This document shows, one piece after another, positions 10,094 to 38,999 of a stretch of DNA of 64,000 bases. Positions within the stretch are counted from its first letter, which is position 1. Each line of letters starts with the position of its first letter. Source of the DNA: Haloglomus halophilum (GTDB lineage: Archaea > Halobacteriota > Halobacteria > Halobacteriales > Haloarculaceae); NCBI RefSeq assembly GCF_024298885.1, contig NZ_CP101166.1, positions 3,905,149-3,969,148 on the forward strand. Direction: 5' to 3'. Position numbers and translations under genes: made by a program. The notes under the pieces were generated by a model. That model worked only from the letters and a program-made list of their open reading frames with translations. It searched no databases and had not been told where the DNA came from.

Positions 10094-10585
10094 TCAGAGC
10101 TCCGCCAGTGCGCGGTGGTAGAAGAGGCCCAGCACGAGATGCTGGCGCATCTCCGCGGCGATCCGCTCGCGGCAGGCCTCGGCGTCGTCGAGCTGGTACT
10201 CCTTGGTCCGGACCAGCTCGTGGCGCTCCAGCAGCCCCTCCTCCTCGAACTCGTGGAGCTGCGGGTACACCGTCCCCGGCGACAGGTCCGCGTCGAACAC
10301 TCGACCCAGGTCCTCCATCAGCCGCTTCCCGTTCGTCTCCGCCGACCGGTGGGCCACCAGGGTCAGCAGGATCTCACTCAGGTCACCCTTCACCGTCTCC
10401 TCGCTGAACGCGAACTCACCTGCCGGCGCGAACGACTCCAGCACCTCCGACAGGAACTCGTCCGCCGACTGCACCGAGTCGGGAGAGCCTTCCTCCTCGT
10501 CTCCTCCAGTTACCTCGGCGTAGAGGCGCTGTAAATCAGAGATCGAGCTATCTCCGTCCATGGTGTCGTCGGATCGCGATGACAT
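10094..10585 (-). CDS. PadR-like winged-helix regulator, copy 1
   Basis: 163 residues. A variable acidic N-terminus of about 60 residues precedes a winged-helix domain with the PadR-type segment DADLSPGTVYPQLHEFEEEGLLERHEL, where recognition helix and wing are clear. A C-terminal helix ends in LVLGLFYHRALAEL. A TATA-like run (GGGAATAAAAAC on the plus strand, 10608-10620) is about 27-33 nt upstream of the ATG, consistent with a leaderless mRNA. A near-identical paralogue lies at 40347-40832; 211 consecutive bases are the same. It sits at the left edge of the archaellum/taxis island, so control of that island is a reasonable guess. Confidence 0.82.
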   Translation of the reverse strand: MSSRSDDTMDGDSSISDLQRLYAEVTGGDEEEGSPDSVQSADEFLSEVLESFAPAGEFAFSEETVKGDLSEILLTLVAHRSAETNGKRLMEDLGRVFDADLSPGTVYPQLHEFEEEGLLERHELVRTKEYQLDDAEACRERIAAEMRQHLVLGLFYHRALAEL

Positions 10586-10631
10586 CGTGTGAGCGGGGGA
10601 TATCGAGGGGGAATAAAAACCCCCGAGGGGC

Positions 10632-10650
10632 GTTATCTGGCCATGAAAAC
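10632..10650. promoter_or_regulatory. candidate operator: GTTATC-N7-GAAAAC inverted repeat, copy 1
   Basis: Lies just upstream of the TATA element of the PadR-like gene at 10094-10585. The 16 bases TCTGGCCATGAAAACC closely match TCTGGTCGTGAAAACG at the same place upstream of the second PadR-like gene. Conservation of both sequence and position supports a binding site, most simply for the regulator itself. Confidence 0.55.
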
Positions 10651-10695
10651 CGCATTTATAATAGATGGGGCCGTCGCGGAGTGATCACGGGGGAT

Positions 10696-10719
10696 TTTAT
10701 CCCACATATGGGTGAAAAC
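10696..10719. promoter_or_regulatory. 24-bp near-palindrome TTTT-N2-CCCA-N4-TGGG-N2-AAAA
   Basis: Found in the intergenic region between the PadR-like gene and its upstream neighbour. It contains the GTGAAAAC half-site seen in the candidate operators. It could be an additional regulator site or a terminator stem for the gene at 10807-11238. Confidence 0.35.
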
Positions 10720-10806
10720 ATCCCTCCCCGTGTGTGACCTGTCCGGCACGCGCACGTCAGACGGCTGGGCCGGATTCCCGAGCATCCAGAGCAGGCGGGC
10801 GTGGGG

Positions 10807-11238
10807 TTACCGCTGGTGGGAACGGCGGGGGGAGCAGAGGACGAACAGGTCGGTCTCGGCGTCGGAGGGTGCCGAGCAGTGTGTGACCGTCCTTGCCATC
10901 CGGCGGTGGACATCCCGGGCGGCGACGGCTTCCCGCTGATCGACCTCGCCGGCAGCCTCTACCGACCGCCAGACGCTACCGGGGAGGTGGAACACGGCAC
11001 CCGGCATCTCGCACTGGACTGGGACCCCGACCGACCGGAGTTCCTCCTCCCGACGCTGGCCCTCGTGCTCGACCGTGGCCAGCACGGCCCGCAGCTCGCG
11101 TCGGGAGACTGGATGCTCGACCGAGACCTGTTCGATGAGTTCGCCGAAGTGCCACTCCACCGTCGCCCGCAGGTCGCAGCTGTCGGGTACCTCACCCCCC
11201 GTCGAGGAGGACCCACCGCCCGGACGCTCGGATGCCAT
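10807..11238 (-). CDS. conserved 143-residue protein, partner of the PadR-like gene, copy 1
   Basis: A soluble, mostly helical protein with no recognised domain. It is paralogous to the 141-residue protein at 38574-38999: both share the pattern LRA(T/A)V(E/D)W(H/Y)FG(E/D)L(I/V)(E/D)QV near the N-terminus and the HRRMAR(T/A) segment near the C-terminus. Both copies occur beside a copy of the PadR-like regulator, so the two genes may act together. A TATA-like ACTATTGAG about 25 nt upstream of the ATG suggests a leaderless mRNA. Confidence 0.65.
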   Translation of the reverse strand: MASERPGGGSSSTGGEVPDSCDLRATVEWHFGELIEQVSVEHPVSRRELRAVLATVEHEGQRREEELRSVGVPVQCEMPGAVFHLPGSVWRSVEAAGEVDQREAVAARDVHRRMARTVTHCSAPSDAETDLFVLCSPRRSHQR

Positions 11239-13723: not shown

Positions 13724-14192
13724 CACGAGGACCACTTCTCCGCGACGACGCGACAGGAAACCGTCGGTTCGGTTCTGCAAGCTCTTCGATAGCCTCGAGT
13801 TGCTCCCGGAGACACCTGCCCTATGCGTCACTCCGCACCGATGATTCGGTCCCCGTATTCTCGTCCCCACGCGTGGCGCGGGCCCGTACACGATGAAATC
13901 GAGACACTGGCCAGCAGCGACCGCCCCCCAGCAGGCCGTCGTGCCGACCGGGACCACCGATAGCCGGAGTGGTGCGGCTGCGAGCTGCACGACCCGTCGT
14001 CTCGTCCGAGAGAGTACTTAAATCATCGTTCTACTCCGGCTTCTCATTTTTAATAGTTTCCCCCCATTCCGTTTCGAACCTCGATACTGGCTTTAGTGGA
14101 GTAGGGTGGTTCGGTGGTGGTAACGCCCGGGGCCGTCCCCCAGCGCCGACACGCGTCGGCCCGGGACTGGCTGGGCGTCGAGTCAAAGTAAC
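13724..14192. promoter_or_regulatory. archaellin promoter and leader region
   Basis: A 469-bp stretch with no gene. AT-rich elements TACTTAAAT (14015-14023), TTTTTAATAG (14047-14056) and GCTTTAGTG (14090-14098) are possible TATA boxes; the last would give a leader of about 70 nt. The leader contains the stem-loop listed at 14126-14166. The upstream part, 13724-13990, shows nothing recognisable. Confidence 0.5.
14126..14166 (+). other. leader stem-loop with two exclusive pairings before the archaellin genes
   Basis: GCCGAC (14145-14150) can pair perfectly with GTCGGC (14155-14160). The same right arm, as CGGCCCGGG (14157-14165), can instead pair with CCCGGGGCCG upstream (14126-14135) with one bulge. 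The structure ends about 27 nt before the first archaellin ATG, so it may affect translation or mRNA stability. It is predicted by eye only. Confidence 0.4.
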
Positions 14193-14741
14193 ATGTTCGA
14201 AAACATCGAACGCGACGCGGACGAGCGCGGGCAGGTGGGAATCGGTACCCTCATCGTGTTCATCGCGCTGGTTCTCGTCGCCGCGATCGCCGCCGGTGTG
14301 CTCATCAACACCGCCGGCTTCCTGCAGAACCAGGCCGAATCGACCGGTGAAGAAAGTACACAACAGGTGTCGAATAACGTGGAGGTCCTGAGTGCGACCG
14401 GCTCAATGTCGAGCTCCGGTGGCCCAGTGGATACCGTCACAATCACGATTGGACTTGGGCCGGGTTCCGACCCTGTTAACATCGGTGAAACCCGGTTCGA
14501 ACTGCTTGATGAGCAGGCGAACGCAGTCCTCGGCAAAAATCTTGGCACCCCTGTAACGACCAATCTGGAAGAGGGCGACCGCGTTCAAGTCGAGTTCGAC
14601 CTCGATTCTGACTTCGCACAGAACCTCCAAGAGGGTGATGAAGCGGAGCTGACCCTCACGACTCCGGATGGCTCGCAAACGGTCGAGGTTCTGAACGTTC
14701 CGGACCCGTTCGACGGGAGCGGCAACGACGTGCGTCTATAA
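14193..14741 (+). CDS. arlA1: archaellin 1
   Basis: 182 residues. The class III signal peptide ends before [36 protein letters not shown] has charged residues up to the prepilin-peptidase cleavage site in front of GQVGIG. The conserved hydrophobic helix with [17 protein letters not shown] forms the filament core; the variable C-terminal domain is beta-rich and exposed. It is cleaved by PibD/ArlK, which is not in this window. First of three tandem archaellin genes; only four bases separate it from the next, and all three probably share one mRNA. Confidence 0.95.
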   Translation: MFENIERDADERGQVGIGTLIVFIALVLVAAIAAGVLINTAGFLQNQAESTGEESTQQVSNNVEVLSATGSMSSSGGPVDTVTITIGLGPGSDPVNIGETRFELLDEQANAVLGKNLGTPVTTNLEEGDRVQVEFDLDSDFAQNLQEGDEAELTLTTPDGSQTVEVLNVPDPFDGSGNDVRL

Positions 14742-14745
14742 AACA

Positions 14746-15324
14746 ATGTTCGAGACAATCAACAACTCAGACGAGGAGCGCGGGCAGGTGGGAATCGGTA
14801 CCCTCATCGTGTTCATCGCGCTCGTCTTGGTCGCGGCAATCGCCGCCGGTGTCCTCATTAACACCGCCGGCTTCCTGCAGAACCAGGCCGAGTCGACTGG
14901 ACAGGAGAGTAGCGATCAAGTGACGAACGGCGTGAATGTGGTCTCTGCCTCTGGCATCTCTGACGATGCCAATGATACGGTCGATAGATTCACTATTACC
15001 GTTTCGCAGTCACCAGGCGCAGACCCTATTGACCTGACCGACGCGAAGTTCGAGTACCTAGACGAATCCGCGACGACAGTCGATTCTACGGATGCAGACG
15101 TAAGCTTGAACGCGGTTAAAGGCGGTTCAACGACGCTTACACAATCGAGTGACCGCGTTGAGATTACTGTCAAGCTTCAAAATGGGCCGGGTTCAATTCC
15201 CGTAGGGGGACTGGACCCAGGCGATGAGGCAGAGTTCAAGATTATCACCAAATCCGGAGCTACGACCACAGAAGTCCTGAACGTCCCCGACCCAATCGGT
15301 GACGACAACGCAGTGGTGCTATAG
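14746..15324 (+). CDS. arlA2: archaellin 2
   Basis: 192 residues. Residues 1-60 match archaellin 1 almost exactly, including signal peptide and filament-core helix ([20 protein letters not shown]). The C-terminal domain is unrelated at sequence level apart from the closing segment [10 protein letters not shown]. Third-codon positions in the C-terminal half are visibly richer in A/T than in neighbours, suggesting a different history. Several Asn-x-Ser/Thr sites, such as NDT, could carry N-glycans as known for haloarchaeal archaellins. Confidence 0.94.
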
Positions 15325-15328
15325 AACA

Positions 15329-15898
15329 ATGTTCGATAATATCAACAACACCGACGAGGAGCGTGGACAGGTGGGAATCGGTACCCTCATCGTGTTCATC
15401 GCGCTCGTCTTGGTCGCAGCGATTGCCGCCGGTGTGCTCATCAACACCGCCGGCTTCCTGCAGAACCAGGCCGAGTCGACTGGACAGGAGAGTACAAATC
15501 AGGTAACCCAGTCACTGGATGTCCAAAACACCCTCGGGACCGCCGATGGTAGCGGTAACATCGATACCATCGAGCTGGTCGTTTCAAAATCGCCCGGGGC
15601 CGGACCAGTCAACGTGACCAACTCCACCATCCAGTACGTCAGCCCCGATGATGCGACGACGCTAATCGGAGCAGAGCAATCGTCAGCGGGGTTCACTACT
15701 GATAGTGATATTCTGACTGACGACTCCAGCCCGATTACCATCACCATCAGTCTCGCTGATTTGGGTGTGAACAATCTTCAGGCCGGCGATGAGGTCGAGA
15801 TGACAATCACCACGCCTTCGGGGGGCCAGTCAACCGTCATCGCGACGGTGCCCGAGCCACTAACGACGGACGACGACGGCGATCAGGTCCGGCTCTAA
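15329..15898 (+). CDS. arlA3: archaellin 3
   Basis: 189 residues, starting [16 protein letters not shown] at the ATG four bases after archaellin 2 ends. It has the same conserved signal peptide and core helix, with a divergent C-terminal domain ([19 protein letters not shown]) containing further N-glycosylation sequons. Three archaellins allow mixed or alternative filaments; which is the major subunit cannot be told from sequence. The C-terminal half again shows lower GC than neighbours. Confidence 0.94.
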
Positions 15899-15963
15899 CG
15901 AATCTCAACTCCCTCGTCTCGCCCGCTAACTAACCCTCTCAAATCTCCCGCGAACAAACACAA

Positions 15964-16410
15964 ATGGGCTTCAGTGTCTCCGGCGCGACGGCCATCGTCT
16001 TCCTCGGCGCGGTCATCGCCTTCGGTAGCGCCTACCCTGCTGTCGTCGACAGTACGGAGGCCATCTCGCAGGCCCAGGGTCAGCAGTCCGACCGGATGCT
16101 CGAACAGCAGAACAGCGAGCTCACGGTCGAGACCGCGACCTATTACGCGGGCAACGACACGTTGACAGCCAACGTGTCCAACAGCGGCACGACCGCCCTG
16201 GCGGTAGGTGAGGTCGACGTTCTCGTCAACGGCACCTACCGCGACGGGGCGACAGTCGACGTCGTTGGGAACAGCGGTTCCGAGGTGTGGCTCCCCGGCG
16301 AGGTCCTCCGGGTGGAGGTATCGGCGACGCCCGGGACGGCCGGGGCCGAACTCCGGCTCAAGCTCGTGACGGGGCCGGGCGTCGCCGACGCCACGGAGGT
16401 GGCCACCTAG
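15964..16410 (+). CDS. arlF: archaellum stator-associated protein ArlF
   Basis: 148 residues. One N-terminal membrane helix (SGATAIVFLGAVIAFGSAYP) and an extracellular beta-sandwich domain (TLTANVSNSGTTALAVGEVDVLVNGTY) of the FlaF type. In studied archaea ArlF and ArlG form a complex that binds the S-layer and acts as the stator of the archaellum. It follows the archaellin genes by 65 bp and abuts arlG directly, so the pair should be co-translated. Confidence 0.93.
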   Translation: MGFSVSGATAIVFLGAVIAFGSAYPAVVDSTEAISQAQGQQSDRMLEQQNSELTVETATYYAGNDTLTANVSNSGTTALAVGEVDVLVNGTYRDGATVDVVGNSGSEVWLPGEVLRVEVSATPGTAGAELRLKLVTGPGVADATEVAT

Positions 16411-16872
16411 ATGGCCAGCGCCTCCGTCTCCTCGCTCATCATCTTCATCGCCAGCCTGGTGGTCGCGGCCTCCGTCGCGGGCACGCTCGTCACGCAGGTC
16501 GGGGATATCACCCACTCCGTGACCGACAGCGGCGAGGACGTCGAGGAGAACATCAACACGGACATCGCCATCATCAGCGACGCCGGGCGGCCGGACTCCA
16601 TCTACGACGGGAACGCACCCATCACGGTGCTGGTGAAGAACACCGGCTCGGGGACGCTCGCGACCGACCCCGGGCAGTTGGACGTGCTGGTGAACGGCAG
16701 TTACGTCGGCGAGAGCGACCTCACGGTGACGAAGGCCGGCGGAGGCGGTGGCTCCTGGGGCCCGGGCGAGGTGGTGAAGGTGGCAATCGACTACGGCGGC
16801 CTCGCCACCGGCGACCACCGCGTGACAGTTATTGTCAATGGGAACGAAGAGGTCCTGCGGTTCAGACACTGA
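16411..16872 (+). CDS. arlG: archaellum stator protein ArlG
   Basis: 153 residues. N-terminal membrane helix SSLIIFIASLVVAASVAGTL, then a coiled segment and an immunoglobulin-like domain (APITVLVKNTGSGTLATDPG, DVLVNGSYVGES) similar to ArlF. It partners ArlF in the periplasm-like space between membrane and S-layer. Its ATG begins on the base after the arlF stop codon, and the DUF7500-like gene starts six bases after its end, indicating one operon. Confidence 0.93.
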   Translation: MASASVSSLIIFIASLVVAASVAGTLVTQVGDITHSVTDSGEDVEENINTDIAIISDAGRPDSIYDGNAPITVLVKNTGSGTLATDPGQLDVLVNGSYVGESDLTVTKAGGGGGSWGPGEVVKVAIDYGGLATGDHRVTVIVNGNEEVLRFRH

Positions 16873-16878
16873 TTCCAG

Positions 16879-17601
16879 ATGAGCGACGATACCCCGCCGT
16901 CCGACCGAGACAGCCCGGACGAAGAGCCCGACGACACGGACGAGCCACTGTTCCCGGTCGACGAGTCGGGCGACAGTCCGTCCGGGGAGGGCCCGCCGGA
17001 GGGGCGGCCCGAGAAGGGTCGCGTCCTCTCGCCGAACGACCTCGACATTACCGACGACGAGGCCGTCGAGGAGATAGACGACGGGCGATTCGTCGTCTCC
17101 GCGGGCGGCGGCCCGCCGAACGTACCGGACGACCCGCCCGACCCCACGACCGGCGCGGACCGTGGGAACGACGGTTCGAACTCCGGTTCCGGTCCCGCTG
17201 GCGCGGGGAACGAGCGGGGTGGCGTCGGCACTCCGGGCATGGGAGTTGGCGGGCCGGCGAGCCCCGAGGCCGCCCGGAACCTGCTCGGCGAGGAACTCGG
17301 CCGGACCCGGGCGCGCTACGGCATCGACGTGGTCGGGCGGTTCGACGGGGAGTCCGCCCGGCATCGGACCGTCTCCAACGACGTGGTGGCGACGTTCGAG
17401 AACCTGGTGCTCTGGTACGCCCGCCACGTCTCCGACGAGACGCCGGCCGAGGAGGTCATCGAGATCCTCCTCCGCGAGGCGAGCGTGGTTCCGGACCCGG
17501 GGACCCCGAACCTGAAGGAACTCCTGGACAAACACGACCTGACCCCCCACGACTCCATCGCCGAGCTGGTCGCGGCCATCACGGCAGAGTCTGGCGACTG
17601 A
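16879..17601 (+). CDS. archaellum-cluster protein, DUF7500-like
   Basis: 240 residues in two parts. The N-terminal 135 are an acidic, Pro/Gly-rich linker that contains RVLSPNDLDITDDEAVEEIDDGRFVVS; I associate this motif with the haloarchaeal DUF7500 family found in archaellum clusters. The C-terminal 100 are a helical domain (NLVLWYARHVSDETPAEEVIEILL ... LKELLDKHDL). Role unknown; position right after arlG suggests a cytosolic archaellum accessory. It might be a distant ArlD-like protein, but it lacks the ArlD/E signature present in ArlCE. Confidence 0.7.
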   Translation: MSDDTPPSDRDSPDEEPDDTDEPLFPVDESGDSPSGEGPPEGRPEKGRVLSPNDLDITDDEAVEEIDDGRFVVSAGGGPPNVPDDPPDPTTGADRGNDGSNSGSGPAGAGNERGGVGTPGMGVGGPASPEAARNLLGEELGRTRARYGIDVVGRFDGESARHRTVSNDVVATFENLVLWYARHVSDETPAEEVIEILLREASVVPDPGTPNLKELLDKHDLTPHDSIAELVAAITAESGD

Positions 17602-17778
17602 CCGGCACGCAGACCGTCTTCGCTCGCGAGGTCGGCAGCCACGGACCACCGTTCGGCGGGCGAGTCGTCGGCTCGTCGAAGGTGACCCGGCCGGTCGGGT
17701 GGCGTAAAAAGTCTGGTCCGCGTTTCGGTCGCCGAGGGCTGCCGGACGTTAACGGGGGTATCCGTCCTGTCGTGGAGT

Positions 17779-18138
17779 ATGGAGCTGGACGTACTGATCG
17801 TCGACGACTCGGACTTCATGCGTGACCTCCTTCGGGAGATCCTCGAGGAGGACCACGACGTCGTCGGCGAGGCCGAGAACGGCGTCGAAGCGGTGGAACT
17901 GTACCAGGAATCCGAGCCGGACCTCGTGATGATGGACATCACGATGCCCATCCGGAACGGCATCGAGGCGACCGACGAGATCACGTCGGGCGACCCCGCC
18001 GCGAACGTCATCATGTGCACGAGCGTCGGGCAGGAGGAGAAGATGAAGAGCGCAATCAAGGCCGGAGCGAGCGGCTACATCAAGAAACCCTTCCAGAAGC
18101 CGAGCGTGCTCCAGGAGATACAGAAGGTCACCGGCTGA
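17779..18138 (+). CDS. cheY: chemotaxis response regulator CheY
   Basis: 119 residues, a single receiver domain. Acidic pocket D9/D10, phospho-acceptor D53 (LVMMDITMP), T81 (CTSVG) and K103 (IKKPF) are all in place. CheY-P, made by CheA, carries the switching signal to the archaellum motor through CheF. The stop codon overlaps the cheC start by one base, so the two are translationally coupled. A promoter may lie in the 177-bp gap upstream, which is otherwise without features. Confidence 0.96.
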   Translation: MELDVLIVDDSDFMRDLLREILEEDHDVVGEAENGVEAVELYQESEPDLVMMDITMPIRNGIEATDEITSGDPAANVIMCTSVGQEEKMKSAIKAGASGYIKKPFQKPSVLQEIQKVTG

Positions 18139-19325
18139 TGCAGATCGACATCGACGCCCTGGAGACGTACAACGAGTTGGCGCGTGACGGGGCGGAGTCG
18201 GCGGCCGCGTCGCTCTCGCAGCTGACGGGCATCCAGACCCGGGTCGACGTGACCAACGTCTCGCTGGCGTCCGCGGCGGACCTGCGCTACGAGTTCGTCG
18301 GTCGGGAGTTCGCCGGCGTCCGCATCGCGCTGGGCGGCGCGTTCTCGGGCGAGACGGTGATGGCGTTCGATAACCAGGCCCGGGAAGCCATCACGGACGT
18401 GCTGGCACCGGACGGAACGATGGAGCGCAGCGCCGTCGAGGAGGTGGGCAACATCATGATGAGCGGCTTCATCGACGGCTGGGCCGACCACCTCGACACG
18501 GGTATCGACATGAGCCCGCCGACGTACGTCGAGGGGTCCGGCGAGGAGGTGCTCCCGACGAACGTCGCCAGCGGTGAGCAGCTGATGATGTTCCGGAGCC
18601 GGGTGCAGGCGGTCGACGAGGCCGTGGACTTCCGCATCTGCCTGATGCCCGAGCGGGCGACGATGGCCGAGGCGATGGAGCCGGCCGCCGACAGCGGCAT
18701 CGACTTCGAGAAACTGGAGGTGTTCAACGAGATGACCGCCGCCGGGAGCGCCAACGCCGCCGGCAACATCAGCACCATGACCGGCATCGACGCCGACCTC
18801 GAGGTCAACCGGATGAGCTTCGTCCCCATCGAGGACGTCCCGGCACAGGTCGGCGACGAACGTTACGTCGGAACGGTCCTCCAGTACGAGGGCTCCATCG
18901 GCGGCTACCTGGTCATCCTGTTCGACCAGCCCTCGGCCCGGGCAGTGGTGGACGCGATGATGCCCGGCGGGAGCGAGGACGGCTGGGGCGAGATGGAACA
19001 GAGCGCGCTGGAGGAGCTCTGCAACATCATGACCAGCGGCTTCATCGACGGCTGGGCGAACGTCCTCGAATCCGAGATCCAGCACTCCCCGCCGCAGTTC
19101 GTGGCGGACATGGGGTCGTCCATCCTGAGTCCCGTCGTCGGCCGGATGGCCGAGAGCCAGGAACACGCGTTCCTGCTGGACTCGACCATCGAGACGGCCG
19201 ACGACCGGGCGTTCCGGTGTGAGCTGTTCGCCCTGCCGAACGAGGCGGAGCTGACCGCCGCGCTGGACGCGCTGCTGGTCGAGCGAGCGGACCAGCTGGA
19301 GGCCGACCCGAGCGAGGTGTTCTGA
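18138..19325 (+). CDS. cheC: double-domain CheC phosphatase
   Basis: 395 residues made of two tandem CheC-like domains (about 1-195 and 196-395). The CheY-P phosphatase motif (D/S)-x3-E-x2-N...P is intact in each: SAVEEVGN...SPP near residues 95-125 and SALEELCN...SPP near 288-318. Single-domain CheC is usually about 200 residues, so this is a fusion or internal duplication, as seen in some haloarchaea. It lies between cheY and cheD with one-base overlaps on both sides, matching the known CheC-CheD interaction. Confidence 0.92.
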   Translation: MQIDIDALETYNELARDGAESAAASLSQLTGIQTRVDVTNVSLASAADLRYEFVGREFAGVRIALGGAFSGETVMAFDNQAREAITDVLAPDGTMERSAVEEVGNIMMSGFIDGWADHLDTGIDMSPPTYVEGSGEEVLPTNVASGEQLMMFRSRVQAVDEAVDFRICLMPERATMAEAMEPAADSGIDFEKLEVFNEMTAAGSANAAGNISTMTGIDADLEVNRMSFVPIEDVPAQVGDERYVGTVLQYEGSIGGYLVILFDQPSARAVVDAMMPGGSEDGWGEMEQSALEELCNIMTSGFIDGWANVLESEIQHSPPQFVADMGSSILSPVVGRMAESQEHAFLLDSTIETADDRAFRCELFALPNEAELTAALDALLVERADQLEADPSEVF

Positions 19326-19834
19326 TGTCGGTGCCGGCGAGTGACGACGCTCCCGGCGCAGCGGATCTCTCGGTCTCGGTGGCCGATAGCGGCGTTTCGG
19401 CCGGCGGCTGCCTCCGGACCAGCGGCCTGGGGTCCTGTCTCGGTATCGCGCTCCACGACCCGGAGGCCGGCGTGGGTGGACTGCTCCACCCCATGCTCCC
19501 GTTCCGCGAGGACGAGACGCGCCGCCGGGAGCGGTACGTCGATTCCGGCGTCGAGCGGCTGGTCGACGACCTCGTCGACATCGGGGCGGACCGGCGGCGC
19601 CTCGTCGCCCGCGTGGTCGGCGGCGCCGCAGTCGTCGAGTTCGGCTGGAACGACGACGCCGGCGGCTCCATCGGCCAGCGGAACGTGGCGGCCGCGGAGG
19701 AGGTCCTCGACGAGGCCGGTATCGACATCGTCGGCCGGGAGGTCGGCGGCGACCACGGCCGGTCGATGCGCTTCGACACGGCCACCGGCGAGCTGACCGT
19801 CGAGCGTACCGACGGCGAACGGACCGTCCTGTAG
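19325..19834 (+). CDS. cheD: receptor glutamine deamidase CheD
   Basis: 169 residues. The catalytic triad fits the family spacing: T32, C38 (SGLGSCLGIALHDP) and H55 (GGLLHPMLPF), which corresponds to T21-C27-H44 of the Thermotoga enzyme. CheD deamidates glutamines in taxis receptors and modulates CheC. The C-terminus carries the conserved RNVAAAEEVLDEAGI and GG.HGRSMRFDTATGEL segments. The ATG overlaps the cheC stop codon. Confidence 0.94.
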   Translation: MSVPASDDAPGAADLSVSVADSGVSAGGCLRTSGLGSCLGIALHDPEAGVGGLLHPMLPFREDETRRRERYVDSGVERLVDDLVDIGADRRRLVARVVGGAAVVEFGWNDDAGGSIGQRNVAAAEEVLDEAGIDIVGREVGGDHGRSMRFDTATGELTVERTDGERTVL

Positions 19835-19947
19835 TCCTCCCCGGGCACGGCGGCGGGGCTGCCCGGGTAACTTCAACCTGTCCCTCGTTCCGGGGCTCGA
19901 AGTGGGCCTGACGTAATAGGAGGGTGCCGGACAAGTGGTACCAACCC

Positions 19948-20091
19948 ATGCCTCTCACCCGCGAGACCTCAGCACGAGCCCCCTTCGGACACGAGCGGGG
20001 CCCGACGGCGACCGGCCGGCCGGCGTCCGCCACGCCGACCGCGGCGAGTCCGGTGACCGACGACGTGACCGTTCCGGGAGGTGGTCACTGA
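19948..20091 (+). CDS. possible 47-residue protein preceding arlCE
   Basis: An open frame starting MPLTRETSARAPFGHERGPT and ending with a TGA that overlaps the arlCE ATG (TGATG). Composition is Thr/Pro/Ala-rich without a recognised domain, so it could be a genuine small protein or a coupled leader reading frame for arlCE. A TATA-like GTAATAGG lies near 19914-19921, about 30 nt upstream of the ATG. Evidence is limited to frame, coupling and promoter spacing. Confidence 0.35.
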   Translation: MPLTRETSARAPFGHERGPTATGRPASATPTAASPVTDDVTVPGGGH

Positions 20092-21881
20092 TGGGGTTGT
20101 TCGGTGGCGGCGACGAGGAGGACACCGCGGACGAGGAACCCGAGGAGGCGACCGACCCGCTCCTCGACGACGGCGGCGACGACCTCCTCGACGGGGACGA
20201 CGACATGACCTTCGGCGACATGGAGGAGGACGACGGCGGTGCCGGCGGCGCCGGGAACGCCGAACTCGAGAACCGGATGGACGAGCTGGAGAACGAGGTC
20301 GGCTCCCTCTCCTCGACGGTGAACACGGTCAAGAGCGAGAACGAGCAGATCAGCGAGTCCGTCGACGACATCGAGGAGAACATCCGGAAGCTACTGGAGG
20401 TGTACGAGATGGTCACCCGCGGCGTCAACCCGTTCGTCAACGAGGACGACCTGGGCGACGCCTTCGACGGCGGCGGAGGCGGTGGCGCCGCCGGCGGTGG
20501 CGCCAGCCTGTTCGGGGGCGACGACGGCGACGGGGACGAGGAAGCACTCGACGAGGATGTCGCTGGCGCCGACGCCGAGGACTTCTTCGACGAGGACCTC
20601 GGCGAGGACGAGTTCGACGACGGCATGGGCGACTTCGACGAGGGGGGCGACGAGTTCGGTGGCGGCATGGACGACTTCGACGATGATGCGGACGCCCTCG
20701 ACGGTGGCATGGACGACTTCGACGATGATGCGGACGCCCTCGACGGTGGCATGGACGACTTCGACGATGATGCGGACGCCCTCGACGGTGGCATGGACGA
20801 CTTCGACGATGATGCGGACGCCCTCGACGGTGGCATGGACGAGTTCGACGACAGCGGCGACGACCTCGGTGACGGCGGCGACACCGACGACGAGGGGAAG
20901 TCGTTCGAGGAGCTGAAGGCCGAGTACGACGCCGGCGACGCGGACTGGCAGGGTGAGGAGGCCGACGCCGGGGAGGCGCTGGACGCCCCGGACTCGGGAC
21001 CGGCCGGGATGGACGGTGACGGGACGGACGGGGCTCTCGATGATGCTCTCGGCGGGGACGCTCCGGACGCGGACGAGACGTTCGGCACCGACGGGCTGGA
21101 CGAGGACGCGGCCGACGATGCGGGGGCCACGACCACGGACGCGGCGGCGAGTGGCCCCTCGGACGGCCGTCGCCCCCATCTCGATTCGCTCCCGGACGGC
21201 TACGCCAGCGACGTGGTCGTGATGGAGTGGCTCGAGTTCCTGGTCGACCAGGGAGGTGTCGACGGTGCGGCCCGGACCATCGCCTACTACGAGTCCATCG
21301 GCTGGCTCGGCGAGGCCGCCGCCGAGGACCTGCAGACGTATCTCGGTGGCTTCGGCGAGGCCACCGCCGAGGGTCTTCCGGACCCGGAGACCGTCGAGGC
21401 CCGCTCGCCGCTCAGCGTGCAGTGCCACCGGACGAGCCTGCGCTACGTCAGCCGGCTCTCCAGCGCCTCGATGGGCATGGACGTGATGGACCGGCTGGAC
21501 GAGGGGGATGCCGCCCGTGCCCCAGCGCCGGACGCGCGTTCGCCTCGCCCGGACTGGCTGGCGGGCAACGGTCACGACTCGGCTGCACGCGCCGCGCCCG
21601 CCGCGGAGGCGGCCGGTGGGCCGGCGACCGACGGTGGAACGGACCCGACCGACAGCGGGACGGACCCCGCAACCGACGACGGCCGGGAACCGGCCTGGCA
21701 GCACCCGCCGGAGTCGGGGGCGACCGATACCGGGGAGGCCCACGACCCAGCACCCGAGGGACGGCTGACCCGGGCCCGGGGGACCGACGACGGGCCGCCG
21801 CCGGGTGGCCGCCGCGGTGTCGAGCGGGCCGGGGCCGAGGCACCGACCCCCGAATCGACCGACGACCCCACCGACCAGTAA
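20091..21881 (+). CDS. arlCE: fused archaellum cytosolic ring protein ArlCE with acidic repeats
   Basis: 596 residues, longer than most ArlCE. Order: acidic N-terminus; coiled coil at about 58-105 leading into the ArlC-type motif LEVYEMVTRGVNPFV; Gly-rich linker; acidic tandem repeats of 14 residues (GMDDFDDDADALDG, residues 192-247); linker; ArlD/E domain at about 365-470 (VVVMEWLEFLVDQGGVDGAA); and a disordered Pro/Asp tail of about 100 residues. ArlCDE proteins form a ring under the motor and receive CheY-P/CheF. The ATG at 20091 gives the conserved MGLFGGGDEE start. Confidence 0.92.
   Translation: MGLFGGGDEEDTADEEPEEATDPLLDDGGDDLLDGDDDMTFGDMEEDDGGAGGAGNAELENRMDELENEVGSLSSTVNTVKSENEQISESVDDIEENIRKLLEVYEMVTRGVNPFVNEDDLGDAFDGGGGGGAAGGGASLFGGDDGDGDEEALDEDVAGADAEDFFDEDLGEDEFDDGMGDFDEGGDEFGGGMDDFDDDADALDGGMDDFDDDADALDGGMDDFDDDADALDGGMDDFDDDADALDGGMDEFDDSGDDLGDGGDTDDEGKSFEELKAEYDAGDADWQGEEADAGEALDAPDSGPAGMDGDGTDGALDDALGGDAPDADETFGTDGLDEDAADDAGATTTDAAASGPSDGRRPHLDSLPDGYASDVVVMEWLEFLVDQGGVDGAARTIAYYESIGWLGEAAAEDLQTYLGGFGEATAEGLPDPETVEARSPLSVQCHRTSLRYVSRLSSASMGMDVMDRLDEGDAARAPAPDARSPRPDWLAGNGHDSAARAAPAAEAAGGPATDGGTDPTDSGTDPATDDGREPAWQHPPESGATDTGEAHDPAPEGRLTRARGTDDGPPPGGRRGVERAGAEAPTPESTDDPTDQ
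20622..20873 (+). repeat. 42-bp in-frame tandem repeat inside arlCE
   Basis: Four perfect copies of a 42-bp unit start at 20664, 20706, 20748 and 20790. A degenerate unit precedes them (20622-20663) and another follows (20832-20873). Each unit encodes 14 residues, so copy-number change keeps the frame. The DNA-level identity, including synonymous positions, points to recent slippage or recombination. Confidence 0.95.
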
Positions 21882-21882
21882 G

Positions 21883-22653
21883 ATGCCAGGCACCAACGCC
21901 GAACGGAACCTGCTCTCGCTCGGGCTGAGTGACCACGACCGGCTGAACAAGGAACTGGGCGGCGGTATCCCGAGGGGGAGCATCGTCCTCGTCGAGGGCG
22001 ACTACGGTGCCGGCAAGAGCGCGCTCTCACAGCGGCTCGCCTACGGGTTCTGTGAGACGGGGACGAGCGTCACCTACCTCTCGACGGAGCTGACCATCGG
22101 CGGGTTCATCGACCAGATGCACTCCCTGGAGTACGGCGTGGTCGACCACCTCCTGAACGAGGACCTCCTCTTCCTCCACGCCGACATCGACACGGGGGGC
22201 GTGCTGTCGGGCGGCGGTGACGCCGAGAACGAGCGGATGGACCTCCTCTCGAGCCTGATGGAGGCCGAGACGATGTGGGAACCCGAGGTCGTCATCATCG
22301 ACACCTTCGACGCCATCCTCCGGAACGACCCCACGTTCGAGGCGCTCATCCGACAGAACGAGGAGCGCCAGGCCGCCCTCGAGATCATCTCCTTCTTCCG
22401 GAACATCATCTCCAGCGGGAAGGTCATCGTGCTGACGGTCGACCCGTCCACGGTAGACCAGGAGGCGATCGGCCCGTTCCGGGCCATCGCGGACGTCTTC
22501 TTCGAACTGGAGATGATAGAGGTCGGCAACGACGTGCGCCGGCAGATCGCGGTCAAGCGGTTCGCCGGCATGGGGGAACAGGTGGGTGACTCGGTCGGGT
22601 ACAGTGTCCGGTCGGGCACCGGAATCGTCATCGAGAACCGCTCCATCGCATGA
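21883..22653 (+). CDS. arlH: archaellum regulatory ATPase-fold protein ArlH
   Basis: 256 residues of the RecA/KaiC fold. Walker A is EGDYGAGKSALSQRL near residue 30-45 and Walker B is VVIIDTFDAI near 140. ArlH binds ATP, sits on the motor ATPase ArlI and is thought to switch it between assembly and rotation. The start ATG at 21883, one base after the arlCE stop codon, fits the conserved N-terminus MPGTNAERNLLSLGLSDHDR. The stop codon overlaps the arlI start (ATGA). Confidence 0.94.
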   Translation: MPGTNAERNLLSLGLSDHDRLNKELGGGIPRGSIVLVEGDYGAGKSALSQRLAYGFCETGTSVTYLSTELTIGGFIDQMHSLEYGVVDHLLNEDLLFLHADIDTGGVLSGGGDAENERMDLLSSLMEAETMWEPEVVIIDTFDAILRNDPTFEALIRQNEERQAALEIISFFRNIISSGKVIVLTVDPSTVDQEAIGPFRAIADVFFELEMIEVGNDVRRQIAVKRFAGMGEQVGDSVGYSVRSGTGIVIENRSIA

Positions 22654-24326
22654 CGGAACTGGGAACCGCTCGGCCCACGGACGAGCTGCGCGAGGAGGCC
22701 GCCCGCAGGCCCCACCTGCGCGAGCATCTCAAGAAGTTCAAACAGATCACCGGCGAGTTCCCACTCCTCATCGACGAGCCGTCCGGCGAGTACGAGACGC
22801 ACCGGCCCAACGTGCTCTACTCGGTCGGCGGCCCCATCTACTGCCACATCTACGGCGACCTCGGCCGGGACACGAAGTACTACGCCATCGAGCCGACGCT
22901 CTCTGGCGCGGAGCGAGAGGTGTACGCGGACATCAAGGACGAACTGCTGCGCCGGAGCGTCAGCAAGCCGGCGCCGGAGAACGAGTCCGAGTACGGCGAC
23001 CGCATCGAGGAACTGCTCTCCGAGACCACGCAGGTCGAGGAGGACGGTGGCCCGGACAGCCTCCTCGAACAGATCAAGTTCCGCTTCGACCCCTCGGTCC
23101 AGGAGGTCTCGCGCTCCACCTACGAGAACATCCGCTACCGGCTCAACCGCGACATCGTCGGGCTGGGCCCGCTCGAGCCGGTGATGCGCGACCCTGCGAA
23201 CGAGGACATCCACGTCATCGGGCCGGAGGGGTGTTACGTCGACCACGGCACCTACGGGATGCTGGAGACGACCGTCGAGTGGGAGTCGGACAAGGCGTTC
23301 GACACCTGGCTCCGGAACATGGGCGAGCGCATCGGCGACCCGCTGAGCGACTCGGACCCCATCGTCGACTCCACGCTCCCCGACGGCTCGCGCCTGAACG
23401 TCATCTACTCCGACGACGTGTCGCTGAAGGGCCCCTCGCTCACCATCCGCCAGGGCGAGGAGGTGCCGCTCTCGGTCAACCAGATCACGAAGTGGGGCAC
23501 CCTCTCGCCGGAGCTGGCCGCCTACCTGTGGCTCTGCCTGGAGAACGAACAGACCGTGTTCGTCGTCGGCGAGACGGCCTCGGGGAAGACGACGACGCTC
23601 AACTCCATCATGGCGTTCATCCCACGGGACGACAAGATATACACCGCAGAGGACACCGCCGAGGTCCTGCCACCCCACGACACCTGGCAGCAACTGCTCA
23701 CCCGCGAGGGCGAGGGTGAGGGCAGTCAGGACGTCGACATGTTCGACCTCGTCGCGGCCGCGCTCCGGTCGCGCCCGGACTACATCGTCGTCGGGGAGGT
23801 CAGAGGGGCGGAGGGGCAGATGGCGTTCCAGGCCGCCCAGACGGGCCACCCCGTGATGCTGACCTTCCACGCGTCCGACATCGTCTCGATGATCCAGCGG
23901 TTCACCGGCGAGCCCATCAACGTCCCCGAGACGTTCATCGACAACGCCGACGTGGCCCTGTTCCAGAACCGCGTCAAGCAGGGCGACGACGTGCTCCGGC
24001 GCGTGACCTCGGTCCAGGAGATCGAGGGCTACTCCAAGGAGATGGACGGCGTCGTCACGCGCCAGGCGTTCTACTGGGACCCCGTCGACGACGAGATCGT
24101 CTTCCAGGGGATGAACAACTCCTACGTCCTCGAGGAGCAGATCGCCAGCCTGCTGGGGTACGCGGACACCCGGAAGATCTACGACGACCTCCAGTTCCGG
24201 GCCCGCGTCATCGAGCGGATGATCCAGGAGGGTATCCTCGACTACCACGACGTCATCGAGACCATCGCGGACTTCCAGCGCGACGGCGTGGAGGGGCTTC
24301 CCTTCGACATCCACAGACAGAACTAG
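22650..24326 (+). CDS. arlI: archaellum motor ATPase ArlI
   Basis: 558 residues, VirB11/GspE superfamily. Walker A GETASGKTTT near residue 310, an Asp box (KIYTAEDTAEVL), Walker B region (RPDYIVVGEVRGAEGQMAF) and His box (TGHPVMLTFHA) are all intact. It powers both filament assembly and rotation from the cytosolic face, forming a hexamer under ArlJ. It is coupled to arlH by a four-base overlap and followed two bases later by arlJ. Confidence 0.96.
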   Translation: MTELGTARPTDELREEAARRPHLREHLKKFKQITGEFPLLIDEPSGEYETHRPNVLYSVGGPIYCHIYGDLGRDTKYYAIEPTLSGAEREVYADIKDELLRRSVSKPAPENESEYGDRIEELLSETTQVEEDGGPDSLLEQIKFRFDPSVQEVSRSTYENIRYRLNRDIVGLGPLEPVMRDPANEDIHVIGPEGCYVDHGTYGMLETTVEWESDKAFDTWLRNMGERIGDPLSDSDPIVDSTLPDGSRLNVIYSDDVSLKGPSLTIRQGEEVPLSVNQITKWGTLSPELAAYLWLCLENEQTVFVVGETASGKTTTLNSIMAFIPRDDKIYTAEDTAEVLPPHDTWQQLLTREGEGEGSQDVDMFDLVAAALRSRPDYIVVGEVRGAEGQMAFQAAQTGHPVMLTFHASDIVSMIQRFTGEPINVPETFIDNADVALFQNRVKQGDDVLRRVTSVQEIEGYSKEMDGVVTRQAFYWDPVDDEIVFQGMNNSYVLEEQIASLLGYADTRKIYDDLQFRARVIERMIQEGILDYHDVIETIADFQRDGVEGLPFDIHRQN

Positions 24327-24328
24327 CC

Positions 24329-26053
24329 ATGAGTGTCGGACAGCGCAGCGCACAGGCCGCAGACCTCCTCGGCAGCATCATCACGGCCTACGAGGAGATG
24401 GAGATGCCGGCCCGGCGCTACGTGCTGGCCGTCCTGCTCCCGACGTCGTTCCTGTTCCTCATCACCATCGTCGCCGCGATTGCGGTGGAGACGCTGTTGC
24501 TGGTCCGGCTCCTGCTCCCCCTCTTCGGCCTCCTCATCCTCGGGGCGGGCGTCGCCTATCCCCGGGTGGCGCTGGACCGACGCCGCATCGAGATGGAGAA
24601 CCGGTTCCACCTGATGGTCACGCACATGACGGTCCTGTCGACGACGAACATCGACCGGATGGAGGTGTTCCGCAAACTGGGCGAGGAGGAGGAGTACGGC
24701 GAGCTCGCGAAGGAGATCCGCCGCATCGTCCAGCTGGTCGACACCTGGAACCAGAGCCTCGACGACGCCTGCCGCCGCCGGGCGAAGTCGGTCCCCAGCG
24801 AGTCGCTGACGGACCTGTTCGACCGACTGGCCTACACGCTGGGCGCGGGCCAGGCGCTCGATGATTTCCTCCTCAGCGAGCAGAGCGTGATGATAGAGAA
24901 CTACTCGACCGTCTACGAGTCCGCGCTGGACAACCTCGACGTGATGAAGGACCTCTACCTGTCGATGATCCTCTCGATGACGTTCGCCCTGGTCTTCGCC
25001 GTGGTCCTCCCCATCCTGACGGGGACCGACCCGACGCTGACGGTGGCGGCGGTCATCAGCATGTTCGGCTTCGTCCAGCTGGGGTTCTTCCTCGTCATCC
25101 GGGCGGTCGTCCCGTACGACCCGGTCTGGTACGTCGCCGAGGACGTCGACACGGAGGCCGAGCGGAAGCTGTTGCTGGTGACGGCCGTGAGCGGTATCCT
25201 GTTCGTGCTGCTGGCGGCCGTCTTCGCGGGCGCGCTGGTCGGTGTCGGCGTCTTCCGGATGCTCATCCCGGGCTGGCTCCCGACGCCGCTGTACGTCGCC
25301 ATCCCGACGCTCCCGTTCCTAGGGGTCGCGCTCGCGTTCCGGGCCGAGGAGAAGCGCATCCGGAACCGCGACGAGGAGTTCCCGTCGTTCATCCGGGCGC
25401 TGGGTGCGACCGAGAGCGCGAAGCAGGCGACCACCTCGAAGGTGCTCTCGACGCTCCGCGACAAGGACTTCGGCTCGCTCACAGGGACCATCGACGACCT
25501 CTACCGGCGGCTCAACATGCGCATCGACACGAGCAAGGCGTGGCGCTTCTTCACCGCCGAGAACGGCTCCTACCTCATCCAGAAGTTCAGCGAGATGTAC
25601 CTCATCGGCCGGGAGATGGGTGGTGACCCCAAACAGCTCGGTGAACTCATCAGCCGCAACATGAACGAGATCAACCAGCTCCGCGAGCAGCGCAGCCAGG
25701 CCACGACGACGCTCATCGGCCTGCTGTACGGCATCACCGCGGCCGCATCGTTCGCGTTCTTCACCGGGCTGGAGATCGTCGGCATCCTGGCCGGGTTCGA
25801 CATCGGAACGGCCTCGGCCGGCGGGATGGACTTCGGGAAGCTGCTCCACACGGACGTCTACAACCTGCCGCTGCTGCAGGCGCTGTTGCTCTGTGTCATC
25901 ATCTTCAACGCGGTCGTCTCCGCGCTGACCATCCGGACCGCCGACGGCGGTCACCCCGGCAACGGCTACCTCCACTTCGTCCTGCTGACGTGGGTCGGCT
26001 GTGGGACCGCCGTCGCGACACAACAGCTCATCAGCATGCTGCTCAGTATCTGA
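24329..26053 (+). CDS. arlJ: archaellum membrane platform protein ArlJ
   Basis: 574 residues, TadC/GspF-like. There are about nine hydrophobic segments, in groups near residues 30-70, 210-260, 285-335 and 460-570, separated by two large basic/acidic cytosolic loops. It anchors the filament and contacts ArlI. Length agrees with haloarchaeal ArlJ. It is the last arl gene; cheF1 follows after two bases. Confidence 0.95.
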   Translation: MSVGQRSAQAADLLGSIITAYEEMEMPARRYVLAVLLPTSFLFLITIVAAIAVETLLLVRLLLPLFGLLILGAGVAYPRVALDRRRIEMENRFHLMVTHMTVLSTTNIDRMEVFRKLGEEEEYGELAKEIRRIVQLVDTWNQSLDDACRRRAKSVPSESLTDLFDRLAYTLGAGQALDDFLLSEQSVMIENYSTVYESALDNLDVMKDLYLSMILSMTFALVFAVVLPILTGTDPTLTVAAVISMFGFVQLGFFLVIRAVVPYDPVWYVAEDVDTEAERKLLLVTAVSGILFVLLAAVFAGALVGVGVFRMLIPGWLPTPLYVAIPTLPFLGVALAFRAEEKRIRNRDEEFPSFIRALGATESAKQATTSKVLSTLRDKDFGSLTGTIDDLYRRLNMRIDTSKAWRFFTAENGSYLIQKFSEMYLIGREMGGDPKQLGELISRNMNEINQLREQRSQATTTLIGLLYGITAAASFAFFTGLEIVGILAGFDIGTASAGGMDFGKLLHTDVYNLPLLQALLLCVIIFNAVVSALTIRTADGGHPGNGYLHFVLLTWVGCGTAVATQQLISMLLSI

Positions 26054-27426: not shown

Positions 27427-28293
27427 TCACTGGTCGTTCATCGACTCGCTGGCGATGTTGCGCCCGCGGGGGCGCAACGCGACCTCACGGCGGATACGGA
27501 CCTCCTCCAGCACGTCGAGGTCGATGAGTCGGTCGAAGATCTCCTCGACGTCGTCCGGCGGGAGTTCGACGAACTCCGGGATGTCGAACGAGGAGACCCC
27601 GGAGTACAGCGCCATCAGGACCTCCTCCTCGGAAGGGTCGAGGTCGAGGTCCGTCTCGTTCCGGGCCGCACCTTTCCCGAGGACGGAGGCGATGATGGAA
27701 CAGTGGCGCGGGTTGCCCGAGAGGTACGTCTCGACGCTGGTTCCATCGTCGGTGTGTGAGGCCTCGATGACGGGCCGCTCGCTCCCCCGGACGGACCGCT
27801 GGTCACGCTCGACGGCGCTCGTGTCGTCGACCTCGATCTCGACGAGTTTGCCGGATTCGGTGGCCAGGTTGATGCGCTCCTCCTCGAGTTTCACGCGGGC
27901 CTTCTGCCAGTCCACGTCGCGGACGACCCCGCCCTCCACGGCGGGGTGGCGGATGAGGACGACCTCGCCGTCGACCATCGCGCCGTACAGCGTCCGCTCG
28001 AAGGCGGCGGCGTCCTCGGGCGAGACGAGGAACACGTCGTCGCCCTGTCGGACGCTGACGTAGTTCGACACCTGTGCGATGGTCTGGTTGATGTCGAACC
28101 GTCCCTGTGCGGCCTCGATGCCCGAGAGGGGTACCGTCCGCTTGCCCTCGTTGCCCGCGAGGACGAGCCGGCGCGTCGAGAGGACGATGCGGCCGCGCTG
28201 CCAGCCCACGTCGCCCAGCTTCCGGCCGTCCTCGATGACCTGGGCGAAGCGGCCGGTCGTGTCGGCCAGTTTCCGCTCGGGCGTCTTGCTCAC
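27427..28293 (-). CDS. cheF2: archaellum-chemotaxis adaptor CheF2
   Basis: 288 residues, paralogue of CheF1 with the same layout (ADTTGRFAQVIEDG ... GRIVLSTRRLVLAGNEGKRTVPL; C-terminal LDLDPSEEEVLMALYSGVSSFDIPEFVEL). Two cheF genes also occur in Halobacterium, where loss of one changes the switching phenotype. Last gene of the minus-strand operon cheB-cheA-cheR-HEAT-cheF2; its ATG overlaps the HEAT gene stop codon by four bases. Confidence 0.92.
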   Translation of the reverse strand: MSKTPERKLADTTGRFAQVIEDGRKLGDVGWQRGRIVLSTRRLVLAGNEGKRTVPLSGIEAAQGRFDINQTIAQVSNYVSVRQGDDVFLVSPEDAAAFERTLYGAMVDGEVVLIRHPAVEGGVVRDVDWQKARVKLEEERINLATESGKLVEIEVDDTSAVERDQRSVRGSERPVIEASHTDDGTSVETYLSGNPRHCSIIASVLGKGAARNETDLDLDPSEEEVLMALYSGVSSFDIPEFVELPPDDVEEIFDRLIDLDVLEEVRIRREVALRPRGRNIASESMNDQ

Positions 28294-29612
28294 GACAGCT
28301 CACCCCCCGGCGCACCACCGAGTTTCGAGAGCGCCGAGAAGGCCCGCTTGCGCAGGCGTTCCTCCTCGGTCTCGTCGACGAAGCGACCCAGCCGCTCCCG
28401 GGCACGCTCGTCACCGACCTTGCCGAGGACGAACAGCGCCTGCGCCCGGGCGTCCATCGAGGCCCCGGGATCGTCCAGCAGCGCGAGCAGTCGCCGCTCC
28501 AGGCCGGCGCCGTCGAGGCTGGTGAGGCTGGACGCCGCGAACTGTGCGGTCCGGTCGTCCCGGTCGTCGAGGGCTTCGATGAGCGCCGCCTGGGCCTCGC
28601 CGCCGCCCGTGCCGCTGGCGACGCGGCCGAGGAGCCACGCCGCATTGCGGCGCTGTGGCGACCCCGACGCCTCCGTCAGGATTGCCGCCAGCGGTCCCAC
28701 GGCCGAACCGTGGTCCACGTCCTCCAGCCGGTCGACAGCCATCTCCCGGGCCTCGTGGCTCTCGGCCGCGGGTGCGTTCGACAGCACCTCCACGAGCGCG
28801 AAGACGGCCGTCCGGCGGACTCCCTCGCTCGGGTCGTGGAGCGCGTCGACCAGCGGGTCGACCGGCTCGACGCTCCCGAAGTCACCGAGCGCGTCGACTG
28901 CCGTCCGGCGGATGGACTCGGACTCGTCGGCCACCAGGGGTTCGAGCGCCCGGCGCGCGGGTGGTGTCCCGATGGCCCCGAGGGCCGACGCGACCGCGCG
29001 CCTGACCGGTGCCGAGTCGTCGTCGGTCCGGTCGGCCAGCGCCTCGACGGCACGGGGGTCGCCGACCCGGCCACAGGAGCGTGCCGTCCGGGCCCGGACC
29101 CGCTGGTCGGGGTCGTCGAGCCGGTCGACGAGCGCCGGCGTCACCCGTTCGTCGCCGACCTGCCCCAGCCCGACGGCGGCGGCCATCCGCAGCTCCGGCC
29201 GGTCGGCGTCGAGCAGCTCCGCGAACGCCTCGGCCGTGACCCAGTCCGCGTCGCCGCCGATATCGCTGCCGGTCAGCTCGCCGACCAGCCGCTCGATGGC
29301 TGCCTGCCCGTGCCGGTCGAGCGCGTCGACCGCCGCCCCGCGGACGCCGGGGGCGTCGTCGTCCGTCGCCGCGGTCACCAGCGCGTCGACGACGCCGTCC
29401 GCGTCGGTCACGCCGGCATCGCCACCGCCCGCGTCCGACGCCTCGGCCCCCAGCAGGTCGTCGGCGTCGCCAGGGTCGGGGGCACGTGAGGGGTCCTCGA
29501 TATCGCCGAGGATGGCCGCCGCTCGCCGTCTGACCTCCGCCTGCGACCCGTGGCGGAGGTACTCGACGAGCGTGTCGGCGTCGGCCTCCCGTTCGAGCTG
29601 GTACAGTGACAT
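28290..29612 (-). CDS. HEAT-repeat taxis protein
   Basis: 440 residues, almost entirely HEAT/PBS-lyase-type repeats of about 31 residues (pattern VRRTAVFALVEVL, IRRTAVDALGDFGS), with an acidic Asp/Gly-rich insert near residues 50-75. Starts MSLYQLEREADADTLVEYL at the ATG at 29612. In Halobacterium a HEAT-like protein encoded beside the cheF genes interacts with Che and archaellum proteins, and the context is the same here. It probably serves as a scaffold. The longer in-frame extension to 30179 overlaps cheR and is not coding. Confidence 0.88.
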   Translation of the reverse strand: MSLYQLEREADADTLVEYLRHGSQAEVRRRAAAILGDIEDPSRAPDPGDADDLLGAEASDAGGGDAGVTDADGVVDALVTAATDDDAPGVRGAAVDALDRHGQAAIERLVGELTGSDIGGDADWVTAEAFAELLDADRPELRMAAAVGLGQVGDERVTPALVDRLDDPDQRVRARTARSCGRVGDPRAVEALADRTDDDSAPVRRAVASALGAIGTPPARRALEPLVADESESIRRTAVDALGDFGSVEPVDPLVDALHDPSEGVRRTAVFALVEVLSNAPAAESHEAREMAVDRLEDVDHGSAVGPLAAILTEASGSPQRRNAAWLLGRVASGTGGGEAQAALIEALDDRDDRTAQFAASSLTSLDGAGLERRLLALLDDPGASMDARAQALFVLGKVGDERARERLGRFVDETEEERLRKRAFSALSKLGGAPGGELS

Positions 29613-29614
29613 GG

Positions 29615-36679: not shown

Positions 36680-36813
36680 GAGAGCCGACGGAAAGCCGAC
36701 GGAGAGTCGGTGGCCTCCTCTGGAACCTGCGAACGGAGAGTTACTCGGCACCGCGGGTATCGAGCCTCGATTCGGGGACCCCTGCTAATAATTCCCGGCA
36801 AATAGCCGGGTGT

Positions 36814-38573: not shown

Positions 38574-38999
38574 TCAGTGGAGGTCGGACGGTTCCGCGGC
38601 GAAGACGACGGCGTCGGTGGAGTCGTCCTCCGGCAGGCTGGCGATCGCGCGTGCCATCCGCCGATGGACCGACCGGACCGCCTCCGCCTCCTCGCCGGAC
38701 AGGTCACACGCCCGGGTCAGCACCTGTAACGTGCCGACGGGGAGCGCCAGAACCTCACCCGGCGCGCCGGCGGTCGAGACCACCCGACCGCGTTCGGCGA
38801 GCTGGTCGCGGCGCGCGCTCGCTTCCTGCTCGATGCTTGCCAGGGCACGGATCAGTTGCTCATGCGAGACCCCGCAGTCGGCCACCACCTGGTCGACCAG
38901 GTCCCCGAAGTACCAGTCCACGGCCGCTCGTACGTCGGTGGCCGCTCCCGCAGCAGCCTCGTCGTCGTCCCGTCGAACTGGCCCCTTGTCGGGCTCCAT
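38574..38999 (-). CDS. conserved 141-residue protein, partner of the PadR-like gene, copy 2
   Basis: Paralogue of the protein at 10807-11238: shared segments (V)RAAVDWYFGDLVDQV and VHRRMARAIA, similar length and helical composition. No recognised domain. TATA-like ATAGTAAAGG lies about 25 nt upstream of the ATG (minus strand), with TTCTGGCCG next to it, which resembles one half of the candidate operator at the PadR-like genes. It is divergent from the KaiC-like gene at 39164. Confidence 0.65.
   Translation of the reverse strand: MEPDKGPVRRDDDEAAAGAATDVRAAVDWYFGDLVDQVVADCGVSHEQLIRALASIEQEASARRDQLAERGRVVSTAGAPGEVLALPVGTLQVLTRACDLSGEEAEAVRSVHRRMARAIASLPEDDSTDAVVFAAEPSDLH

Follow-up and report, generated by a model that had tools for sequence, protein, structure and literature searches.

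Do the related regulator genes at the two ends of an archaellum and chemotaxis island in Haloglomus halophilum control motility, and does each PadR-like gene work with the small partner gene encoded close to it? We addressed this question in a window of 64,000 nucleotides, by which we mean the whole stretch of DNA that was analyzed, and in related haloarchaeal genomes.

Layout of the island

The features at the island are the following:

10094 to 10585, minus strand: left PadR/GvpE-like winged-helix regulator, 163 aa (Pfam PadR, 7.4e-7; family profile against GvpE, 5.4e-29)
10807 to 11238, minus strand: left partner, 143 aa, a stand-alone form of a domain that elsewhere lies C-terminal to a CsmR-type helix-turn-helix (HTH)
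14193 to 26053, plus strand: archaellum core with cheY, cheC and cheD, from the archaellins to ArlJ, between the two PadR/partner copies
27427 to 33821, minus strand: che genes CheF, CheR, CheA and CheB, between the two PadR/partner copies
38574 to 38999, minus strand: right partner, 141 aa, in divergent orientation to cirA, the two genes sharing 122 bp of intergenic DNA
39122 to 39844, plus strand: cirA, a CirA-type KaiC-like ATPase (KaiC PF06745, 1.5e-40)
39844 to 40239, plus strand: small gene after cirA, with no Pfam family over the cut-off
40347 to 40832, minus strand: right PadR/GvpE-like winged-helix regulator, 161 aa (Pfam PadR match)

Gene names in the archaellum core, except archaellin and CheF, were assigned by us from the sequence, with ArlJ as the search marker; CheR, CheA and CheB were likewise named from the sequence, without a family scan, while CheF matched PF04283 (1.2e-68) in a Pfam scan. 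The two PadR proteins score 29.5 and 29.8 bits against PF03551 (cut-off 27) and share 82% protein identity and 96% DNA identity over 386 bp, their genes being direct repeats approximately 30 kb apart. The two partners share 37% identity over 115 aa (E = 3e-20), and no family over the cut-off was found for either in Pfam or NCBIfam. A sequence-only reading of this DNA had described four open reading frames as two paralogue pairs around the arl/che island, and all four are indeed present where it placed them. Neither family has copies in the 4.4-Mb genome beyond its two at the island, and the bracketing is therefore not due to chance. The same reading had called each pair a two-gene cassette. 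Both pairs are real, but the right one is not adjacent, as cirA and the small gene separate the partner from PadR. Among congeners, G002 harbors both pairs in the same arrangement as the source genome (G000), and neither family was found in G001 and G003.

Several other features of the region were observed. The small gene (approximately 131 aa) is also located 3' of cirA at four other loci (L053, L055, L056 and L063). The island encloses a transducer with a protoglobin domain, resembling the HemAT aerotaxis sensor (36652 to 38397), and a 352-aa protein without a Pfam family carries CxxC-type clusters near its N-terminal start (35621 to 36679). G000 and G002 share 97.7% identity in the region upstream of the archaellins (13724 to 14200); for most of the other intergenic stretches that we compared, identity was 79–91%, and for one it was 94%.

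Kinship with GvpE and linkage to archaellum genes

Using a profile of 11 PadR relatives (A2), we found the PadR family in 100 of 293 genomes of the order. The family profile aligned to that of GvpE with E = 5.4e-29 and 39% identity over 103 residues (hhalign), and the homology spans the winged helix as well as the C-terminal region. GvpE itself matches Pfam PadR and has already been termed a PadR regulator in a transcriptome study (PMC11218638), so this assignment is not new. In a tree of 82 family members, GvpE forms a separate and well supported clade; the outgroup clade is largely GvpE, its inspected members being located between gvpD and gvpF. The copies in the window are surrounded by arl and che genes, not by the gas vesicle genes of a gvpDE-type operon, and we therefore regard these copies as relatives of GvpE rather than GvpE itself. 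The suggestion of an undescribed control system thus needs qualifying, as the proteins are homologues of a known haloarchaeal activator. In the same tree, the window copies cluster with L109, L110, L041 and L111 (clade support 90/85 and 89/68); these four represent three families and are all found near archaellin or ArlD-like genes. The clade has one further member, L043, in whose genome no arlJ was detected. The A2 profile also matched the solved structure of Rv3488 (E = 2.8e-7), and an AlphaFold2 model of the PadR fold, with an input of two sequences only, reached a pLDDT of 42, too low to be informative. No relatives of the PadR or partner family were found in viral contigs. Beside the gas vesicle cluster of L186 (2263-4173), a second short GvpE/PadR-like gene adjoins a KaiC-like gene.

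Genomes having both arlJ and PadR numbered 65, a count that leaves out G002, and in 19 of them a PadR copy was located within 20 kb of arlJ, compared to 0.84 expected for random placement. The search for ArlJ covered 80 genomes, and some 20 further PadR-positive genomes stand outside the distance count. The Poisson probability for this linkage (1e-19) is too small because the genomes are related, 13 of the 19 coming from a single family (f7), where PadR is frequently the final gene of the arl operon; linked copies were also found in families f1, f4 and f12. Other members of the PadR family have cheB, cheD and cheW as neighbors (L171) or occur close to CsmR and transducer genes (L172, L176 and L178). 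The expected co-occurrence with motility genes is thus borne out in that PadR genes are recurrently found near arl, but the majority of the family is located elsewhere. For example, a separate clade is divergent from a CsmR-like gene and adjoins a helicase gene in several genera, and three genomes (G022, G091 and G170) carry a PadR copy where arlJ was not detected. We found no mention of a link between the PadR family and archaellum clusters in the literature searched. From gene position, we infer that the PadR pair is linked to the archaellum and that its output would include arl/che expression; the link to swimming likewise rests on gene position. In several families, PadR is found at one end of a second type of arl cluster, which lacks che genes and comprises archaellins, ArlCE, F, G, H, I and J, and a small ArlE-like gene (L094-L101, L107 and L109-L111).

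Gene conversion, operator-like palindromes and the partner

A four-way alignment of the left and right PadR genes of G000 and G002 separated two histories. Within the tract encoding the winged helix, 12 sites group by genome and none group by position before the last four codons, whereas the N-terminal codons and the flanks group by position. Similarly, core identity is higher within genomes (96.7% and 98.1%) than between orthologues (94.0–94.3%), while N-terminal identity is 51–53% between paralogues and 73–89% between orthologues. Taken together, the grouping of sites and the identities imply that the DNA-binding part, a tract of approximately 390 bp, was homogenized in each lineage and that two differing N-termini were retained. 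Judging from the sequences, gene conversion has acted in both species to preserve the likeness of the two winged helices, and the N-termini have kept their differences. Gene conversion limited to a DNA-binding domain would be an unusual means of holding two regulators on one operator.

Both PadR genes are preceded by an operator-like palindrome:

10632 to 10650, minus strand: GTTTTCATGGCCAGATAAC, 46 nt 5' of the left PadR start, with the TATA-like box TTATAAAT immediately upstream
40878 to 40896, minus strand: GTTTTCACGACCAGAAAAC, with perfect arms, 45 nt 5' of the right PadR start

The two sites follow the pattern GTTTTC-N7-GA[A/T]AAC, which is kept in G002 and recurs 5' of PadR relatives in other genera. 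Allowing up to 2 mismatches, we found it upstream of 20 of 47 PadR members outside families f5 and f7, compared to 10 of 1075 control gene starts, and upstream of none of the 37 members within f5 and f7. Strand matches numbered 14/13 in the G000 genome (1/0 for the reversed pattern) and 12/10 in that of G002 (0/0). The position of the palindrome suggests repression of the padR gene that it precedes, and the PadR pair is probably self-regulating. Near-identical winged helices together with a common palindrome 5' of both genes also fit the earlier idea of one DNA target with different N-terminal inputs.

The palindrome has TGAAAAC as its half-site, which is similar to the TGAAAC repeats of gvp promoters; the upstream activating sequence (UAS) layout of these promoters has been described (PMC4390858). 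Direct TGAAAC repeats of this GvpE type are present in the gvp loci L185 and L186, and none was found in the window, including the arl, che and cirA promoters. Two other candidate motifs were rejected. The CsmR operator had no match at arl promoters at up to 1 mismatch and nine at 2 mismatches, none of them convincing, and a motif common to the upstream regions of archaellin and MCP genes, CGTTTCGAA, did not occur above chance.

The distribution of the palindrome bears on what the PadR pair controls. Elsewhere in the window no copy was found at up to 2 mismatches, including the archaellin, other arl, che and cirA promoters, and the earlier proposal of motility control therefore lacks an operator copy at every arl/che promoter of the window. 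About 10 places are conserved between G000 and G002, upstream of nac-like, HalX-type response regulator-like, DUF5658-like membrane protein and other genes (names read from the sequence, not by family search); these sites (L226-L234 and L239-L245) form a candidate regulon. Such a pattern would suit autoregulated regulators of general functions that merely sit at the island edges, with scattered palindromes rather than arl/che genes as targets, and we regard this reading as possible though not probable. It is also favored by the neighbors of the family in several genera, namely a helicase gene and a CsmR-like gene in divergent orientation, and by the copies kept in genomes without a detected arlJ. 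On the other hand, the arl linkage recurs across families, and the window copies group with arl-adjacent members.

The partner leads in a different direction. It is related to the C-terminal domain that follows a CsmR-like HTH in fusion proteins of other genomes, and also to a free-standing gene flanked by gatA and an HTH gene in Natrinema and similar genera. The HTH of the fusion proteins has CsmR as its nearest relative among those compared (45% identity, E = 4e-19). No HTH match was found in the 141–143 residues of the partner itself in Pfam or NCBIfam, and we rejected homology of the partner to CsmR, as its similarity is to the non-HTH part of the fusion protein. AlphaFold2 gave a fairly confident alpha/beta model for the right copy (pLDDT 80.7), for which a fold search returned no PDB match (best E = 0.19). 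The partner probably works through protein contact, in the role that the C-terminal module has in the CsmR-HTH fusions. The fusion protein is near-identical across several genera (L195, L200-L203 and L206, and also L077, L081, L086, L089 and L090), with conserved upstream DNA, and is found once on a plasmid (Halorientalis marina); the gene looks mobile.

We also considered that PadR and partner constitute one two-protein unit, a sensor plus a DNA binder, with the entire unit duplicated so as to flank the island. In its favor, both families have exactly two copies, all at the island, in two species, partner domains elsewhere are fused to a CsmR-type HTH, and CsmR-like genes neighbor PadR relatives. 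However, outside this genus no partner was seen beside motility genes or next to a PadR gene, the context in Natrinema-like genomes being gatA and an HTH gene; cirA splits the right pair; and the partners diverged to 37% identity while the PadR genes were homogenized. A single duplicated unit thus appears improbable, the presumed cassette is not a conserved unit, and the partner is a separate story from the PadR pair. Finally, the direct orientation of the PadR copies, their homogenized tract of approximately 390 bp and their spacing of about 30 kb could reflect repeats left by island insertion or duplication, alike through recombination alone and with possible island deletion as their main effect, but this is very unlikely given that promoter palindromes are conserved at both copies despite diverging flanks, both frames are intact and each copy keeps its own N-terminus across species.

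A proposed circuit and its relation to known systems

The explanation that we prefer, and to which we give about an even chance, is that the window encodes duplicated archaellum-linked GvpE-like winged-helix regulators that are autoregulated and possibly restrained by CirA, with arl/che among their outputs and the partner acting by protein contact. Each PadR dimer would bind the palindrome at its own promoter and at that of its twin, and binding at both would keep the total level constant by negative autoregulation. The differing N-termini would provide differing inputs or contacts. CirA would hold the pair in check in the manner of GvpD, a KaiC-domain protein that restrains GvpE, and arl/che expression would be part of the output in a genus where CsmR was not found. 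The relation of CirA to PadR is a reasoned proposal drawn from the following points: cirA deletion leads to hypermotility in Haloferax volcanii (PMC13286277), GvpD binds the activator GvpE and lowers its level (PMC4390858), and GvpD carries a KaiC domain, as CirA does. Sequence comparison indicates that CirA and GvpD are only distantly related, at the level of the KaiC superfamily. If the proposal is true, the mechanism of CirA, which the CsmR study left open while proposing phosphorylation (PMC13286277), would be to bind a GvpE-like protein and remove it, in the way of GvpD.

Among known motility regulators, EarA, the archaellum activator of Methanococcus and Pyrococcus, is also a winged-helix regulator of arl genes and is absent from Hfx. 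volcanii according to the CsmR study (PMC13286277). RosR of Halobacterium is a PadR-like winged-helix protein, and a rosR mutant of Haloferax is non-motile (PMC13286277). The A2 profile matched RosR weakly (E = 0.0015), the matched chains are shorter (116–127 residues) and the published motif TCGnCGACGAGnTCGnCGAC (PMC4287449) is unlike the window palindrome; given the weak similarity and the differing motif, we rejected orthology.

The CsmR/CirA system of Hfx. volcanii is similar in that a regulator gene is located at the arl cluster and a KaiC-like CirA is present (PMC13286277). CsmR itself, a 13-kDa protein with an N-terminal HTH that binds TATCA-N4-TGATA (PMC13286277), belongs to another family than the window PadR. 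We recognized CsmR genes by synteny and size following that study (PMC13286277), not from HVO_1209 itself, and found them in 228 of 293 genomes at E ≤ 1e-25; matches in f7 had weaker scores only and may be a paralogue. None was found in G000 at this threshold, and the window contains no CsmR-like open reading frame, CsmR being a protein of about 112 aa encoded upstream of archaellins. CsmR was likewise not found in genus g10, in most members of which arl genes occur together with one to four PadR copies. G000 retains a CirA orthologue, which is encoded within the right pair; CirA orthologues are 57–97% identical, with a clear gap to other KaiC-like proteins in relatives. Regulators of this PadR type would be candidates for controlling the archaellum in genomes without CsmR. 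A bolder version, in which a GvpD/GvpE-type switch of CirA on GvpE-like PadR activators replaced CsmR and gene conversion keeps two inputs on one target, seems to us rather unlikely. Such a replacement would concern this genus and perhaps also lineages resembling Natrinema in which no CsmR gene is seen at the arl clusters.

Another close comparison is with GvpE and its repressor GvpD. If our explanation is true, homologous regulators and KaiC-superfamily partners would run both buoyancy, through gas vesicles, and swimming, a simple common logic in haloarchaea. The systems differ in that the window PadR is linked to archaellum rather than gvp genes and has two copies, in that its palindrome lies just downstream of a TATA-like box whereas the gvp promoters have a direct-repeat UAS beside the BRE, and in that cirA and padR do not form one operon. 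They are alike in their homologous PadR-type winged helices, in having a gene for a KaiC-superfamily protein in the vicinity (cirA in the window, gvpD in the gas vesicle system) and in similar half-sites, TGAAA(A)C.
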